DNA from: Anseongella ginsenosidimutans
GTDB lineage: Bacteria; Bacteroidota; Bacteroidia; Sphingobacteriales; Sphingobacteriaceae
DNA length: 64,000 nt
Assembly (NCBI RefSeq): GCF_008033235.1
Contig: NZ_CP042432.1
Span: 2,232,001 to 2,296,000 of the forward strand
Direction of reading: 5' to 3'
Shown here: positions 7,110 through 18,130 of the stretch, one piece after another
How the letters are laid out: the number at the start of each line of letters is the position of its first letter
How positions within the stretch are numbered: the first letter of the stretch is position 1
Position numbers and translations under genes: made by a program
The notes under the pieces: generated by a model
What the model was told of the DNA's origin: nothing
What the model saw: the letters and a program-made list of their open reading frames with translations, nothing else
The model's database searches: none

Positions 7110-7147
7110 ATTTCATTTCGCCCGCTTTTGCGGTTTTGATCAGCAAG

Positions 7148-7541
7148 TGGAGCCGGAGAGATTCGAACTCTCGTCCAGATATGGGACGGGTTGTGCTTTC
7201 TACATGTTTAGTTTGCGATTGGTTGTCGGCGGCAGGCCGGCCACAAACAGCCTACCTGCTACTTAGTCCCTTTGGTTGTCGGGGCTGGTGCGGGACGAAC
7301 CAGGCCTTATTCCGGCTTTATCGTGCCTCCTTGCCGGACGCGGCCAGACATCGCTTCCGGGAGACATCTTGCTTCCCACTCTTAGCGGGAAAAAGTTAAT
7401 TCCGTTCTAAACGAAATTAAGCGGCAAGAGCGTAGTTGTTTTCGCCGTTTATGATTTGAGGATTTTCTTTAACGGGCACTTTCCACAAAGCCCGGCATGC
7501 TTACACACCAATCTTCCATCCTGTCAATTCCGGTCGGCCCC
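7148..7541 (-). ncRNA. ssrA: transfer-messenger RNA (tmRNA)
   Basis: The 5' end GGGGCCG (complement of 7535-7541) pairs with CGGCTCC at the 3' end (complement of 7149-7155) with one G-U pair, followed by discriminator A at 7148; CCA is not encoded. The T-arm carries the GGTTCGAAT-type loop (GAGTTCGAATCTC). The internal reading frame (complement of 7417-7446) encodes GENNYALAA and a UAA stop, a typical Bacteroidota proteolysis tag ending in ALAA. Total length 394 nt. tmRNA with SmpB rescues stalled ribosomes and tags the nascent chain. A perfect -7 element lies upstream and an intrinsic terminator downstream. Confidence 0.96.
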
Positions 7542-12146: not shown

Positions 12147-13232
12147 TTACCCCATCCGCGCATTGCGGTTCCGCAGCAGGTGGTCGGCCAGTACAAGGGC
12201 GGCCATTGCTTCCACGATGGGCACTGCCCTGGGCAATACGCAGGGATCATGACGGCCTTTGCCTTTTACTTCTGCTTCCCCGCCGTCCCGGTCAACCGAA
12301 GTTTGGGGTTTCATAATGGTTGCAATGGGCTTGAAACCTACATTGAAGTAGATGGTTTCCCCGTTGGAAATGCCGCCTTGTATTCCGCCTGACCGGTTGG
12401 TCCTGGTCCGGATACGGCCGCCTTCGTTCTCAAAGAGGTCGTTGTGTTCCGAGCCCCGCATGTACGTGCCGTCAAAACCGGAACCGTATTCAAATCCGTG
12501 CGCGGCATTAATGCTTAACATGGCCTTGGCCAGATCCGCGTGAAGTTTATCAAATACCGGCTCTCCTAAACCTGCAGGACAGTTATCCGCCACACAGGTT
12601 ACGACTCCGCCAACCGTGTCCCCGTCCTTCCGGACCTGGTCAATAAGTTCGATCATTCGCTGGGCTGTCCCTTCATCCGGGCAGCGGACCATGGTCGTTT
12701 CCGTTTGAGTAAGGTCAAGCTCCTTGTGTGATTTTTCCAACTTTATGTTAGCCACGCGGCTTACATAAGCCTGAACGCTAATACCGGCCGCTTGCTGAAG
12801 AAGTAGTTTGGCCACCGCGCCTGCCGCAACTCTTGCAGCGGTTTCCCGGGCAGAGGAACGACCGCCTCCGCGGTGATCCCGTATACCATATTTGCTGTCA
12901 TAGGTAAAGTCCGCGTGCGAAGGCCGGTACGCAGAGCGAATGTGATCGTAATCCTTCGACCGCTGGTCTTCGTTAGGGATCAGGAGCGAAATAGGCGTGC
13001 CGGTGCTTTTTCCTTCGTATATCCCTGATAAGATCTGTACGGTATCGCTCTCCTTCCGCTGGGTGGTTATCCGCGACTGGCCGGGGCGCCGGCGGTCAAG
13101 TTCCCGCTGAATAAACGCCGCGTCAATATCCAGCCCGGCCGGGCAGCCGTCAATGATCACGCCGATAGCCTTTCCGTGTGATTCCCCGAAGGTGGTAATG
13201 CTGAACGATTTTCCGAATGTGTTTCCTGCCAT
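12147..13232 (-). CDS. aroC: chorismate synthase
   Basis: Makes chorismate from 5-enolpyruvylshikimate 3-phosphate using reduced FMN. ATG at 13232 starts [20 protein letters not shown], the canonical N-terminus; upstream in-frame codons would run into aroA. Other signatures are [10 protein letters not shown], the [15 protein letters not shown] loop, [36 protein letters not shown] and the C-terminal GYGSGFDGT-like and [14 protein letters not shown] motifs. Length 361 residues is normal. The start lies 1 base beyond the aroA stop, so translation is coupled. Last gene of the pheA-aroG-aroA-aroC run and convergent with the E1 gene. Confidence 0.97.
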
Positions 13233-13233
13233 T

Positions 13234-14586
13234 TTATGTGTTGATCTGCGCTGCTGCCATTTTAAAACCATGCTTGTCCAGGTCCTTCCAGAACGTGGGA
13301 TAGGATTTGACTACCACCTCCTTGTCTTCGATCTCCATCGGTCCCAGCCTGATGGCAAGGGGAGCGAGGGCCATGGCCATCCGGTGATCGTGATAGGTAT
13401 GAATAACAGGGGCGGCCTCCGGTATGAAAACGCCGGAAGTATCCAGTTCCCAGCGATTGCCTTCCGCATTTTCAATGAGCCGGGCCCCGAATTTGCCCAG
13501 TTCGTTCTGAAGCGCTTCCACGCGGTCGGTTTCCTTTATTTTAAGGCTTTCAAGGCCGGTAAAAACCGCGTTTTGCCGGAGTGCGGTGCAGCAGGAGATC
13601 ACGGTCTGGGCCAGGTCCGGGCAGTGAATAAAATCAATTTCCCGTTCCCCGGAAGCAGATTCCCTTGCAACCGTTTCCCCCGCAGCAATTCCCCTTGCGG
13701 CTGTTTCACCGGCACCCGTTCCTATTTCAGCCGATTCCCATGCGCCGGCAGCCGTTTCCCCGCGGCTTAAGCGAATGCCCCCGGCTGAAAAATGAGTTCT
13801 TACGCCGAATGCTTCCATGATCTTTGTAATTTCCCGGTCTCCCTGCAGGCTTTGCTGCTTCAGGTAAGGCAAGGTTAAATCTGCCTCCTCACAAAGCGCA
13901 GCCATGGAATACCAGTAAGAAGCCCCGCTCCAGTCAGGTTCAATGCTGAGAACGGCCGGCTGGTACCGCTGGGCGCCGACGTGTATGGTATTTCCGGTCC
14001 ACTCATGCCGGATACCAAGTTCACCCATCATGGCCAGGGTCATTTCAATATAAGGACGCGAGCCGATCGTTCCCGAGAGGTGAATGGAAAGGCCGTTGGG
14101 AAGCGCCGGAGCGATCATTAGCAGCGCGGAAATATACTGGCTGCTTATATTGCCCGGGATGCGTACTTCGCTTGCTTTATCAAGCCGTTTGCCCCTTATT
14201 CTCATAGGCGGAAAGCCTTCTTCTTCCAGGTACTGAATATCGGCGCCCAGCTGGCGAAGTGCATCGGCAAGGATGCCGATAGGACGTTCTTTCATTCGCT
14301 TGCTCCCGGTAAGGGTCCATTCACCTTCGGTTACGGCGCAAAAAGCGGTGAGAAAGCGCATGGCGGTACCTGCCGGCCCTACGTCCAGGACCTGGTTCCT
14401 GTCCCGTCCATCCAGGAGTGCCTGAAGGGTCACCGTATCGGCCGCCTCTGAAAGGTTCCTGATCTCCACACGCTCTTCGCAAAGGGCCTGCATGATCAGA
14501 GCCCTGTTGCTTTCGCTTTTGGAGCCGGGAAGTATCACTTCGCCGCTAAGGCGGGCATCCGGCTTTGAAATTAAGATATTCGACAT
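13234..14586 (-). CDS. aroA: 3-phosphoshikimate 1-carboxyvinyltransferase (EPSP synthase) with a low-complexity insertion
   Basis: Transfers the enolpyruvyl group of PEP to shikimate 3-phosphate. Signatures are [17 protein letters not shown] at residues 19-35, [62 protein letters not shown], and [15 protein letters not shown] near the C-terminus with [14 protein letters not shown]. Between LSR (about residue 272) and [11 protein letters not shown] (about 313) is an unusual insert of some 40 Ala/Gly/Glu/Thr-rich residues containing GETAA twice and GETVA, absent from ordinary family members. It keeps the frame and does not hit catalytic motifs. Length 450 versus about 410-430 in relatives. 16 bp after the DAHP synthase gene. 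Confidence 0.96.
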
Positions 14587-14601: not shown

Positions 14602-15702
14602 TTACGCTTCAACGGTTTTTTTATTCAGTATCTCTGTTTGTTTACGGATGCTCTCATTGTGGATCAGCTCCAGCATTTTTTCCGTGAAGTCTTTGTCCAG
14701 CTTAAGCGCTGAGGCGTAATGAGTACGTTTACCGATGATCTCTTCCCAACGGCTTACCTGCAGGATCGTCACCTTGTTGTCACGCTTGTACTCCCCGATC
14801 TTTTCAACGATCCGCATGCGCTCGGCAAGCTTCCGGATAATGGCGTCGTCCAGTTCATCAATTTCCTTCCGGAGTATTTCCAGGGTATTCTGGAATTCTT
14901 TATTGTCAGATTCCGGCTTGCGAAGTGTGAGGTGGTCGATGATCGTGCCTAATGCATCCGGCGTAACCTGCTGCTTGGCATCTGTCCAGGCCAGGTCAGG
15001 AGTAATATGGCTTTCGATCATCAGTCCCTGCATGTCCAGGTCCAGCGCTCTTTGCGAAATGAAGGGGATCAGTTCGCGGTTTCCGCAGATATGGCTGGGA
15101 TCACAGATAACAGGCAGTTCAGGGAAATGCGTTTTCAGGCCGATAGCCACGTCAAACATGGGCTCATTGCGAAAAGAAGTTTTTTTGAACGAGCTGAAGC
15201 CACGGTGAATGGCCGCGATCTTCCGGATGCCTGCGCCGTAAATGCGTTCAATAGCGCCTATCCAGAGCTGCAGGTCGGGATTGACCGGGTTCTTTATCAG
15301 TACGGGGATGTCTACGCCTTTAAGTGCGTCGGCCACTTCCTGTACTGAAAAGGGGTTGACCGTGGTTCTTGCGCCTATCCACAGAATATCGACACCCGCC
15401 TTCAGCGCTTCTTCCGCATGACGGGCAGTAGCCACTTCAACGGTTACCGGTAAGCCGGTTTCCTTCTTTGCCTGTATCAGCCATTTCAAGCCCTCTGATC
15501 CGATGCCTTCAAATTCCCCGGGGCGGGTTCTTGGTTTCCATATACCAGCCCTGATCGCGCTGACCTTATTGAGTGCTTTTAGCTGGCGGGCCGTAGCCAG
15601 CAGCTGTTCTTCCGTTTCCGCGCTGCACGGACCGGCAATCACCAGGGGCTGATTGAGTCCCGGTAACCATTCATTCATGGGAATGAGCTCTAAATGCTTC
15701 AT
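14602..15702 (-). CDS. bifunctional 3-deoxy-7-phosphoheptulonate synthase / chorismate mutase
   Basis: Residues 1 to about 260 are a DAHP synthase of the KDOPS-like (type I-beta) group: PLVIAGPCSAETEEQLL, RAGIWKPRTRPGEFEGIGSE, VTVEVATARHAEEALKAGVD, WIGARTTVNPFSVQEVA, and PVICDPSHICGNRELIPF with metal ligands. Residues about 275-366 are an AroQ-type chorismate mutase (EILRKEIDELDDAIIRKLAERM, VEKIGEYKRDN). This fusion is the normal Bacteroidota enzyme, in which the mutase part also serves in feedback regulation (established for homologues). It opens the shikimate pathway and also branches chorismate to prephenate, the substrate of the upstream pheA product. 35 bp after pheA, so covered by the same attenuator. 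Confidence 0.95.
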   Translation of the reverse strand: MKHLELIPMNEWLPGLNQPLVIAGPCSAETEEQLLATARQLKALNKVSAIRAGIWKPRTRPGEFEGIGSEGLKWLIQAKKETGLPVTVEVATARHAEEALKAGVDILWIGARTTVNPFSVQEVADALKGVDIPVLIKNPVNPDLQLWIGAIERIYGAGIRKIAAIHRGFSSFKKTSFRNEPMFDVAIGLKTHFPELPVICDPSHICGNRELIPFISQRALDLDMQGLMIESHITPDLAWTDAKQQVTPDALGTIIDHLTLRKPESDNKEFQNTLEILRKEIDELDDAIIRKLAERMRIVEKIGEYKRDNKVTILQVSRWEEIIGKRTHYASALKLDKDFTEKMLELIHNESIRKQTEILNKKTVEA

Positions 15703-15737: not shown

Positions 15738-16571
15738 CTATTTTCTTGTATCGTTACTTTTGTACTCTCCCATAACCGATAAATTATGAGTGTATTTTAA
15801 TATTTTCCTGAGCGAAAGGTCGTAGGCTTTCTGTTCGGTCCATTCCAGGTCCAGGTAGAAGTTGTACTCGTTGGGTTTCCCCAGGACAGGCATGGATTGG
15901 ATCTTGCTCAGGTTGATATTATTCTGGGCAAAGATCGTAAGCACCTTTGCCAGCGATCCCGGTTTGTTATTTACCCTGAAGCAAACCGATGCTTTGTTCG
16001 CATCTTTAATATCTTCGTGTTCCCTGGCAATGACCAGGAAGCGGGTATAATTTTTCTTGTTGGATTCGATGCGTCTTTCCAATACTTCCAGCCCGAAAGC
16101 CTTTGCCGCATTCAGGTTGGCGATGGCTACCGTGTCCTTTAGCTGCAGGTCTTGTATTTCCTTTGCGCAGGCGGCGGTATCGCTTTTTTCCAGGACGGTA
16201 ATTCCCTGCAGGTCCTGAAGAAACTCTTCACACTGGCGGATGGCGATGGGATGGGATTGCACATATTTAATGTCTTCAAACCGCAGTCCCGGAAGCGCCA
16301 GCAAATGCAGCTGGACGGGAAGAAATATTTCACCGATGATCGGGAAATTATAATCCTGGAGCAGGGAATAATTGGGCAGAAGGCTGCCGGCGATGGAATT
16401 TTCTATCGCCATGACGATATAGTCGGCCCTTTCCTGTTTCATTTCCTCGAACATCCGCTTGAACGTCATACATTCCAGGGTTTCGATTTCCTCACCGAAA
16501 TAAGTAAGCGCCGCTTCTTCGTGGAAGGAAGCTTTTATGCCTTGTATTGCTATGGTTGGTCTTTTTGCCAT
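15738..16571 (-). CDS. pheA: prephenate dehydratase
   Basis: Converts prephenate to phenylpyruvate. The 277-residue protein has the periplasmic-binding-like catalytic part (IQGIKASFHEEAALTYFGEE, ADYIVMAIENSIAGSLLPNY, VQSHPIAIRQCEEFL, and NYTRFLVIARE with the TRF catalytic motif) and a C-terminal ACT domain (NKPGSLAKVLTIFAQNNINL, then IQSMPVLG), which binds Phe for feedback inhibition in homologues. The ATG is 9 bases from a T-run that ends a terminator hairpin, so expression depends on read-through of the attenuator upstream. First structural gene of the pheA-aroG-aroA-aroC run. No tyrA or aspC-like gene is inserted here, unlike many relatives. Confidence 0.96.
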   Translation of the reverse strand: MAKRPTIAIQGIKASFHEEAALTYFGEEIETLECMTFKRMFEEMKQERADYIVMAIENSIAGSLLPNYSLLQDYNFPIIGEIFLPVQLHLLALPGLRFEDIKYVQSHPIAIRQCEEFLQDLQGITVLEKSDTAACAKEIQDLQLKDTVAIANLNAAKAFGLEVLERRIESNKKNYTRFLVIAREHEDIKDANKASVCFRVNNKPGSLAKVLTIFAQNNINLSKIQSMPVLGKPNEYNFYLDLEWTEQKAYDLSLRKILKYTHNLSVMGEYKSNDTRK

Positions 16572-16579
16572 TATTTTAC

Positions 16580-16609
16580 AAAAAAAAATCCCGAGCTACT
16601 CACTCGGGA
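16580..16609 (-). terminator. attenuator terminator hairpin before pheA
   Basis: On the minus strand TCCCGAG (16609-16603), loop TGAGTAG, CTCGGGA (16595-16589) is followed by nine T (16588-16580), a textbook intrinsic terminator. It lies between a Phe/Tyr-rich leader peptide and the pheA start codon, and its left arm overlaps the antiterminator partner. Confidence 0.9.
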
Positions 16610-16656
16610 CTTACAGTATTCTTGTTCAAACGCACTAGTTTTACAACAAGTCCCGA
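16604..16656 (-). promoter_or_regulatory. antiterminator pairing in the pheA leader RNA
   Basis: TCGGGACTT (complement of 16648-16656, within the last codons of the leader peptide) is perfectly complementary over 9 bases to AAGTCCCGA (complement of 16604-16612). The second segment contains most of the left arm of the terminator, so the two hairpins exclude each other. A ribosome stalled on the Phe/Tyr codons would leave the first segment free (read-through); a ribosome at the stop codon would cover it (termination). Confidence 0.8.
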
Positions 16657-16709
16657 TGGGGCTTATTAAAAAAATAAAAGTAAAACCAGTTGTTTGATAT
16701 AGTTCTCAT
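16641..16709 (-). CDS. pheA leader peptide, 22 residues, Phe/Tyr-rich
   Basis: An ATG 10 bases downstream of a perfect -7 promoter box opens a 22-codon frame ending in TAA at 16641-16643. Residues 8-14 read WFYFYFF, that is four Phe, two Tyr and one Trp in seven codons, followed by NKPHRDLL. This is the classic composition of an attenuation leader peptide that senses charged tRNA-Phe (and here perhaps tRNA-Tyr/Trp). Its last codons form one strand of the antiterminator. The peptide itself is unlikely to have another role. It is similar in logic to enterobacterial pheL but I see no sequence kinship. Confidence 0.85.
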   Translation of the reverse strand: MRTISNNWFYFYFFNKPHRDLL

Positions 16710-16718
16710 AACGTTTGG

Positions 16719-16749
16719 CAAATATAGATGATGATTTTTTAAAAAGCAA
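16719..16749 (-). promoter_or_regulatory. promoter of the pheA leader and operon
   Basis: On the minus strand TTG (16749-16747, within TTTTG), 20-base spacer, TATATTTG (16726-16719): a full match to the Bacteroidota housekeeping promoter. The start of transcription would fall only a few bases before the leader peptide ATG at 16709. Confidence 0.85.
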
Positions 16750-16810
16750 AATATTTTTTTGTAATTCCGCATCATTAGCCGGGGGCTGCAGTTTACCGAC
16801 CGGGCCGCTA

Positions 16811-17059: not shown

Positions 17060-18130
17060 TTATTTGAACAGCCCGTTATAAAGTACGAGGGCTTGCCGGA
17101 TCTCTTCTTCCGTGCAGGTCTGGTTGATCACAAATTTTCCGATCCCTTCGAGCAAGGTGAAATTAATCGTTCCCTTCTCGTTTTTCTTATCTTTCTTCAT
17201 GAATTCGGCCAGCTCGGCAAAAGCGCCCTCGGGGATCCGGTAGTTGGGGTAATAGGCGAGCAGGAAATTCTTTATATCGGTCAGGGCGCTTTCTTCCAGG
17301 CCGGTTTTGGTATGGGATAGCCAGGCTTCGCAGATCATGCCGATGGCAATTGCTTCGCCATGAAGCAGCGGGTCTTTATCGTGAGCCAGGGAATAGCTTT
17401 CCACCGCATGCCCGATGGTATGCCCGAAATTGAGCGCTTTTCGTATGTTCCGTTCTTTTGGGTCTTCCAGGACGATCTTGTTCTTGATATTTACCGAATG
17501 GAAGATCATGGCATTGTCAACGCTTCCCATGGCATTGCTTTGAAGGTCGAAATAATAGCCGCTGTCACATATAAGCCCGTGCTTGATCATCTCGGCAAAG
17601 CCGGACAGCAATTCCCGGCGGGGCAGGGTATAGAGGAAATCGGTATCGATGAACACCGCCTCCGGGTTGGTGAAGGTTCCGATGATATTCTTAACATGGT
17701 CCATGTCAATCCCGGTTTTGCCGCCAACGGATGCGTCAACCTGTGATAACAACGTGGTAGGTACCTGGATGAAATCAATACCCCGCTTATAGGTAGAGGC
17801 TGCAAAACTTCCCATATCTGTCACCATGCCGCCTCCAAGGTTAATGAGCAGGCTGTCGCGCCCGGCCCCGAAATCGAGCAGCATTTTCCAGATACCTATG
17901 CAATAGTCAATATTCTTGTGGGCCTCCCCCGCATCAATTTCAATGATATCGTATTCTTTCAGCAGCGGAAGCTTTTCCGTGAATTTAGGAAGGCATTTTT
18001 CCGAAGTATTGGTATCGGCCAGGATGAAGGTCTTCGCATATTTTTTTTCTTCAAGGAATGTTTGCAGAGGGCCGTAACTGTTCCCCACATATACATTGTA
18101 GCCCTCACTATTGATGATGAAAGTTTGCAT
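17060..18130 (-). CDS. aroB: 3-dehydroquinate synthase
   Basis: Second step of the shikimate pathway, NAD- and zinc-dependent. The 356-residue protein shows the family blocks INLGGGMVTDMGSFAASTYKRG, FIQVPTTLLSQVDASVGGKTGID, LLSGFAEMIKHGLICD (zinc-ligand Glu), RKALNFGHTIGHAVES (His ligand) and LLHGEAIAIGM (His ligand). The active-site lysines are in place. It sits upstream of the pheA attenuator and has its own -7 box next to the start, so it is probably transcribed apart from pheA-aroC. Remnants of duplicated sequence follow its stop. Confidence 0.97.
   Translation of the reverse strand: MQTFIINSEGYNVYVGNSYGPLQTFLEEKKYAKTFILADTNTSEKCLPKFTEKLPLLKEYDIIEIDAGEAHKNIDYCIGIWKMLLDFGAGRDSLLINLGGGMVTDMGSFAASTYKRGIDFIQVPTTLLSQVDASVGGKTGIDMDHVKNIIGTFTNPEAVFIDTDFLYTLPRRELLSGFAEMIKHGLICDSGYYFDLQSNAMGSVDNAMIFHSVNIKNKIVLEDPKERNIRKALNFGHTIGHAVESYSLAHDKDPLLHGEAIAIGMICEAWLSHTKTGLEESALTDIKNFLLAYYPNYRIPEGAFAELAEFMKKDKKNEKGTINFTLLEGIGKFVINQTCTEEEIRQALVLYNGLFK

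Follow-up and report, generated by a model that had tools for sequence, protein, structure and literature searches.

The window, by which we mean the whole 64,000-nucleotide stretch of DNA that was analyzed, carries the following genes around the leader region considered here.

15738-16571, minus strand: pheA, prephenate dehydratase (ATG at 16571), with Pfam PF00800 above its cut-off
14602-15702, minus strand: DAHP synthase fused to chorismate mutase, best matches under curated cut-offs
13234-14586, minus strand: aroA, EPSP synthase (TIGR01356, 276.9 bits against a cut-off of 287.25)
12147-13271, minus strand: aroC, chorismate synthase, above cut-off (open reading frame as listed)
17060-18130, minus strand: aroB, upstream of the leader and on the same strand as pheA

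The best NCBIfam matches of pheA are models of prephenate dehydratase (E = 2.9e-58 and 7e-58), under their curated cut-offs, and the true start of aroC probably lies downstream of that of the listed frame. A tmRNA gene is also present in the window (7145-7541, minus strand; Rfam).

Directly upstream of pheA, the minus strand of positions 16580 to 16750 reads as a complete attenuator layout, with a Bacteroidota-type promoter, a leader, an antiterminator arm, and a terminator, followed by pheA.

16747-16750, minus strand: -33-type promoter element TTTG, with a 20-nt spacer to the -7 box
16719-16726, minus strand: -7 box TATATTTG (TAnnTTTG)
16641-16709, minus strand: leader peptide open reading frame MRTISNNWFYFYFFNKPHRDLL, 22 codons from the ATG at 16709 to the stop at 16641, without a Shine-Dalgarno-like motif
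16668-16688, minus strand: putative sensing codons WFYFYFF (sequence and codon comparison)
16680-16697, minus strand: segment 1, 5' arm of a pre-emptor hairpin (minimum free energy [MFE] fold), alike in the congener L032
16626-16644, minus strand: distal part of segment 2, 3' arm of the pre-emptor hairpin (MFE fold)
16648-16656, minus strand: antiterminator arm A TCGGGACTT, within codons His18 to Leu21 (arm scan, covariation, and folding)
16602-16612, minus strand: shared arm B AAGTCCCGAGT, serving as antiterminator 3' arm (16604-16612) and terminator 5' arm
16586-16596, minus strand: terminator 3' arm C GCTCGGGATTT (arm scan and covariation)
16580-16588, minus strand: the nine T of the terminator T-run

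The promoter, the WFYFYFF leader, and the terminator with its nine T before pheA all lie where the original prediction had placed them, as does the 9-bp antiterminator pairing between arm A (TCGGGACTT, 16656-16648) and arm B (AAGTCCCGA, 16612-16604). The terminator (16612-16586) contains the predicted perfect 7-bp core, TCCCGAG/CTCGGGA, and reaches 11 bp with flanking A-T and G-U pairs. In the MFE fold, an extra stem (16697-16680 with 16644-16626) encloses arm A in a closed hairpin, and the leader RNA as a whole has an MFE of -43.6 kcal/mol (z = -5.08; 0 of 200 shuffles equally low). The -7 box, which sits at a characteristic distance from the transcription start, ends 9 nt before the leader ATG, and because of this usual distance the mRNA probably starts 2 to 3 nt upstream of the ATG (at about 16712). 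When both strands of the window were scanned for short open reading frames with at least five aromatic residues in eight plus a terminator, the pheA leader was the single site recovered.

The leader is widely conserved. Among the best 80 of 132 confirmed relatives, whose loci were fetched by pheA and are mostly titled Pedobacter, Mucilaginibacter, and related genera, 79 carry a complete Phe/Tyr-rich leader upstream of pheA; at the remaining locus (L086), a contig edge falls inside the leader, with the leader end and the terminator still visible. The closest relative by PheA is an Anseongella ginsenosidimutans MAG (L032, 88% identity), whose contig also occurs in the same-genus genome G001. According to the terminator script, a hairpin followed by a T-run (at least six T in eight) is present in 75 of the 80 loci and in the window additionally, at four loci (L043, L053, L085, and L104) the T-run behind the hairpin is weak, and L086 is truncated. 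The arm GCCGGGACT, which duplicates the terminator 3' arm, is in most leaders made up of Ser-Arg-Asp (or Gly) codons plus the initial base of the stop codon. One locus (L068) lies on a contig titled as a Legionellaceae MAG, and its pheA and leader resemble those of Daejeonella loci; this is probably a mislabelled or mis-binned assembly.

The counts of codons, promoters, and folds that follow refer to 80 leaders, namely, the window plus 79 loci. In 54 of them, arm A starts at -11 relative to the stop codon's end. The 60 nt preceding the leader start contain an exact TAnnTTTG in 59 of 80, as opposed to 3 of 80 for a control stretch farther upstream; nine leaders lack a -7-like box even in relaxed form, and 69 of the 71 that have one also have TTTG or TTGN at a spacing of 15 to 24. 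No leader among the 80 has a Shine-Dalgarno-like motif in the 15 nt before its start. Ribosomes of Bacteroidota mostly initiate without Shine-Dalgarno pairing.

Differences among related leaders are concentrated at third codon positions. In 850 pairs of same-length leaders with a peptide identity of at least 60%, 1091 of the 1341 single-base differences in aromatic codons fall at the third position, with 1034 synonymous (the pairs are not independent), suggesting that the leader open reading frame is translated. Phe and Tyr are each present at least twice in every leader of the 80. The original prediction had also raised the joint sensing of Trp, and this part found no support: a Trp codon occurs in 35 of 80 leaders, and the TGG (Trp) of the window is CGG (Arg) in the congener L032, and Trp was accordingly rejected as a third signal.

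Covariation was assessed on alignments of these leaders. Alignment A1 has 79 rows, with L034 (a near-copy of L033) and the truncated L086 left out; alignment A4 has 57 nonredundant rows, with the window, L032, and 20 more rows at 93% identity or above removed. RNAalifold, when given only segments 1-2 or only segments 2-3, returned weak structures of 7 and 5 pairs, respectively, and pairs were therefore counted on named structures. On A4, 97.1% of the cells of the terminator are paired, with double changes in 6 of 11 pairs, a level reached by 0 of 500 shuffles, although these and the following shuffle counts are not probabilities because the aligned sequences are related. The antiterminator pairing A:B is paired in 94.3% of cells, with double changes in three of nine pairs. 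Together with the arm scan, these counts support the mutually exclusive antiterminator and terminator, with arm B in common, that were proposed from the window. When an inner helix is added to A:B, 81.7% of cells are paired and the covariation score exceeds that of all 500 shuffles, with six double-change pairs, a number matched by 72 of 500. The inner helix alone, paired in 62.2% of cells, was dropped as a general feature. A further pairing of the 1:2 type, which joins the Tyr/Phe codons with the stretches flanking arm A, is paired in 90.8% of cells and also scores above all 500 shuffles; its five double-change pairs compare with 4.3 in shuffles and are matched by 179 of 500. The window and L032 have a longer 1:2 hairpin whose sequence is unlike that of the other leaders.

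A covariance model (R1) was built from A4 and hence without this genus, such that the window and G001 are independent of the model sequences. R1 recovers the window leader at 16709-16578 (42 bits, E = 5.5e-5; next match, E = 1.2). Matches with an E of 1 or less occur in 37 of 60 genomes (own genome included) and lie directly upstream of pheA in 36, a count that represents a survey and not an independent test because some of the genomes supplied model sequences. A pheA match, in one case partial, is present in 40 of the 60 genomes, and the four of these without an upstream R1 match are G037, whose leader was found by script, G047, G057, and G059. The 20 genomes without pheA yield one weak match (G042, E = 0.81). 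Altogether, the 60 genomes contain 47 R1 matches: 36 at pheA, 2 at thrA, 1 at trpE (G009, assigned by position), and 8 elsewhere. Three of these last eight were examined (L152, L164, and L165), and none has a convincing leader.

A survey of the class extends the occurrence of the leader. Among 119 genomes, our own included, prephenate dehydratase was found in 31, providing 30 loci. With one locus (L193) set aside, a script identified a leader, terminator, and arm at 19 of 29 class pheA loci; its reverse-strand control was positive at 1 of 29, and 20 rounds of shuffling gave 0.25 positives on average and 2 at most. Adding G041 (read from L156) and two loci recognized by eye (L182 and L185) brings the total to 22 of 30, spanning 14 family labels, with four loci in our own family, the window included; no leader was found at the remaining 8 of 30. 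In other classes of the phylum, no pheA leader was detected at any of eight loci drawn from 258 matching genomes.

The effect of ribosome position was modeled by folding. Each codon was placed in turn in the ribosomal A site, the RNA covered by the ribosome or already passed by it was removed, and the pairing of A with B was computed in the transcript ending at B; values above 0.5 were scored as on and those below 0.1 as off, with an assumed ribosome leading edge of +13. For the window, A:B is predicted to be absent from untranslated RNA, present from codon 2 (0.73) to Asn15 (1.0), and at most 0.04 from Lys16 onward. When the last aromatic codon occupies the A site, A:B is on in 78 of 80 leaders; at the stop codon, it is off in 79 of 80, and the terminator then forms in all 80. 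The model therefore favors the proposal that arm A, lying in the last leader codons, would be freed by stalling. For 78 of 80 leaders, the switch point, as predicted from folding under this assumed footprint, falls 0 or 1 codon past the last aromatic codon. Two leaders whose assigned arms look wrong or divergent (L035 and L102) were counted as failures.

These results vary with the size of the footprint. At the last aromatic codon, A:B is on in 77 or 78 of 80 leaders for leading edges of +9 to +15 but in only 30 and 0 of 80 for +17 and +19, respectively; at the middle aromatic codon, it is on in 78 of 80 at every footprint, +17 and +19 included. At the stop codon, A:B is off in 73 of 80 (+9), 76 of 80 (+11), and 79 of 80 (+13 and +15). 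In untranslated RNA, A:B forms in 74 of 80 leaders, and the 1:2 pre-emptor hairpin forms in the window and L032; by this model, the pre-emptor hairpin may not be general among leaders. In complete RNA at equilibrium, the terminator has a probability of at least 0.84 at all ribosome positions in the three leaders considered, from which it follows that the outcome of the switch must be settled while transcription is under way. The identical script applied to E. coli pheL as a control returned a similar curve, with A:B missing when the RNA is untranslated.

The anatomy, conservation, covariation, and codon constraint are direct observations and, along with the modeled ribosome geometry, they support the reading of this region as a Phe/Tyr attenuator. 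The leader very probably acts as a classical ribosome-mediated transcription attenuator that senses Phe and Tyr and governs pheA together with the DAHP synthase/chorismate mutase, aroA, and aroC genes. RNA polymerase would make a very short 5' end and the 22-codon leader, with a ribosome following. When charged tRNA-Phe or tRNA-Tyr is scarce, the ribosome would stall in the aromatic run and leave arm A free to pair with the emerging arm B; pairing of B with C would be blocked, and the polymerase would proceed into pheA. With an ample supply, a ribosome at the stop codon would cover arm A, B would pair with C, and transcription would end at the T-run. For an untranslated leader, the 1:2 hairpin seen in this genus is expected to hide arm A, and termination is again predicted.

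The same B:C hairpin might instead control translation by masking the pheA start from ribosomes, since in the window about 14 nt separate its end from the pheA ATG. Among relatives, however, the terminator and the start of the pheA match are 13 to 131 nt apart (the match may begin up to about 20 nt within the gene), and the hairpin is followed by six or more T in eight at 75 of 80 loci (four are weaker, and L086 was not scanned), which makes translational control very unlikely. Slightly less probable still is that the peptide itself senses free Phe or Tyr in the ribosome tunnel, and not tRNA charging, in the manner of TnaC, a nascent-peptide arrest switch. Within close relatives, a TYWFGYFYYFSKSRD-like peptide core is strongly conserved, but leaders across the class vary in the order and length of the aromatic run, and the SRD end is also accounted for by the antiterminator arm encoded there. 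That the hairpin is an ordinary terminator of the aroB transcript, which comes from upstream on the same strand, and the short open reading frame fortuitous has a negligible probability given a leader that is complete in 79 of 80 relatives and cut short in the last one, and given the excess of class pheA loci over the reverse-strand and shuffled controls.

Leader-peptide attenuation of pheA appears to belong to a wider set. The script detected leaders with Thr/Ile runs at 17 of 25 thrA loci, Trp leaders at 19 of 29 trpE loci (L247 and L254 look like chance, and L203 was lost to the length filter), and leaders at 2 of 26 hisG loci (28 places, with two partial copies in G049 left out), and the reverse-strand control was 0 for each gene. 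In the thrA leaders (L209 to L225; e.g., L211, MLSNQSIIITIITTTGNISEEG), there is a terminator, and the antiterminator arm is mostly in the last codons. Upstream of hisG, L265 and L272 have five consecutive His and then a terminator.

The trpE leader of our own genome (L203) contains WRW in a similar layout and probably starts with GTG; its counterpart in the congener starts with ATG (MIYQVVHTGWWW). The trpE leaders of relatives (L234 and others) contain WWW, again in a similar layout. No leader stood out at thrA, hisG, or two ilvD loci of our own genome (L205 and L206, not the fragments L207 and L208). A GTG-initiated open reading frame at its thrA, with four Ile/Leu in eight and near a weak AT-rich hairpin, was taken as chance.

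It seems somewhat likely that leader-peptide attenuators occur throughout the Bacteroidia, with Phe/Tyr leaders at pheA, Thr/Ile at thrA, Trp at trpE, and sometimes His at hisG, all built on one layout. That layout would, on balance, comprise a start without a Shine-Dalgarno motif near the promoter and an antiterminator arm that is formed by the last leader codons and repeated as the terminator 3' arm. If such a set exists, it would constitute a main amino acid control of Bacteroidia, invisible to current RNA family models. The interest of the locus is in its completeness, its conservation, and this wider set of leaders in the class: it offers a complete and testable anatomy for amino acid control in a phylum for which little was found described in the open-licence literature. 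An RNA family model could be made from the conserved leader to annotate pheA, thrA, and trpE leaders in Bacteroidia, and leaders without Shine-Dalgarno motifs raise the question of ribosome-polymerase coupling.

Related elements have been reported in the phylum. The extracts of PMC9723704 describe structured elements in the 5' regions of pheA and hisG of Flavobacterium psychrophilum, conserved in other Flavobacteriaceae and without an Rfam match, as well as clues of leader-peptide attenuation at amino acid operons in flavobacteria; PMC7366714, in its extract, mentions short open reading frames of Bacteroides thetaiotaomicron that are reminiscent of leader peptides. The PMC9723704 elements resemble those analyzed here in phylum, in pheA as a target, and in the absence of an Rfam match, and because that text already notes a pheA element and attenuation clues, this type of attenuator counts as known. 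A phenylalanine version, of which the original prediction knew no description in this phylum, is thus not entirely undescribed. The peptide, the arms, and the sensed amino acid do not appear in those extracts, nor does any spread beyond Flavobacteriaceae. A term search of the main text of PMC2965389 returned no instance of bacteroid, pheA, or phenylalanine. In the titles and abstract openings of the open-licence literature, there was no further paper describing a Bacteroidota pheA attenuator, and in this literature no confirmation was found of trp attenuation in Bacteroidetes.

Comparison with Rfam, also proposed in the original prediction, places the leader outside the families described there. 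At gathering score, the window contains only tmRNA and tRNA, both away from the leader, with no T-box or riboswitch, and 20 further loci, thrA, trpE, and hisG loci among them, contain no match. The Phe_leader family (RF01859) scores 17.5 bits (E = 1.4) on the window, below its cut-off of 55, and this is one of 13 subthreshold matches, five of which score higher; the E. coli pheL control reaches 132.3 bits.

The thrL, trpL, and hisL leaders are attenuators for Thr, Trp, and His, respectively. The Thr/Ile, Trp, and, rarely, His leaders at thrA, trpE, and hisG of relatives are alike in kind, although the loci tested here fall below every Rfam gathering score. The nearest known counterpart of the pheA leader is the E. 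coli pheL/pheA attenuator, with which it has in common the target gene, a Phe-rich leader, and an antiterminator and terminator with a common arm. R1 aligns end to end with E. coli pheL (L288:1600-1726; 24.8 bits, E = 0.0024 when 3.5 kb were searched), in keeping with a shared layout. As in the window, a hairpin in pheL blocks A:B when the leader is untranslated, and the modeled pheL curve is off in untranslated RNA, on from Pro5 to the last Phe, and off at the stop. In contrast to pheL, the leaders of relatives carry Tyr codons as often as Phe and lack a Shine-Dalgarno-like motif, and the window leader scores below the RF01859 threshold; most leaders here have arm A within their last codons, whereas in E. 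coli pheL it starts just past the stop.
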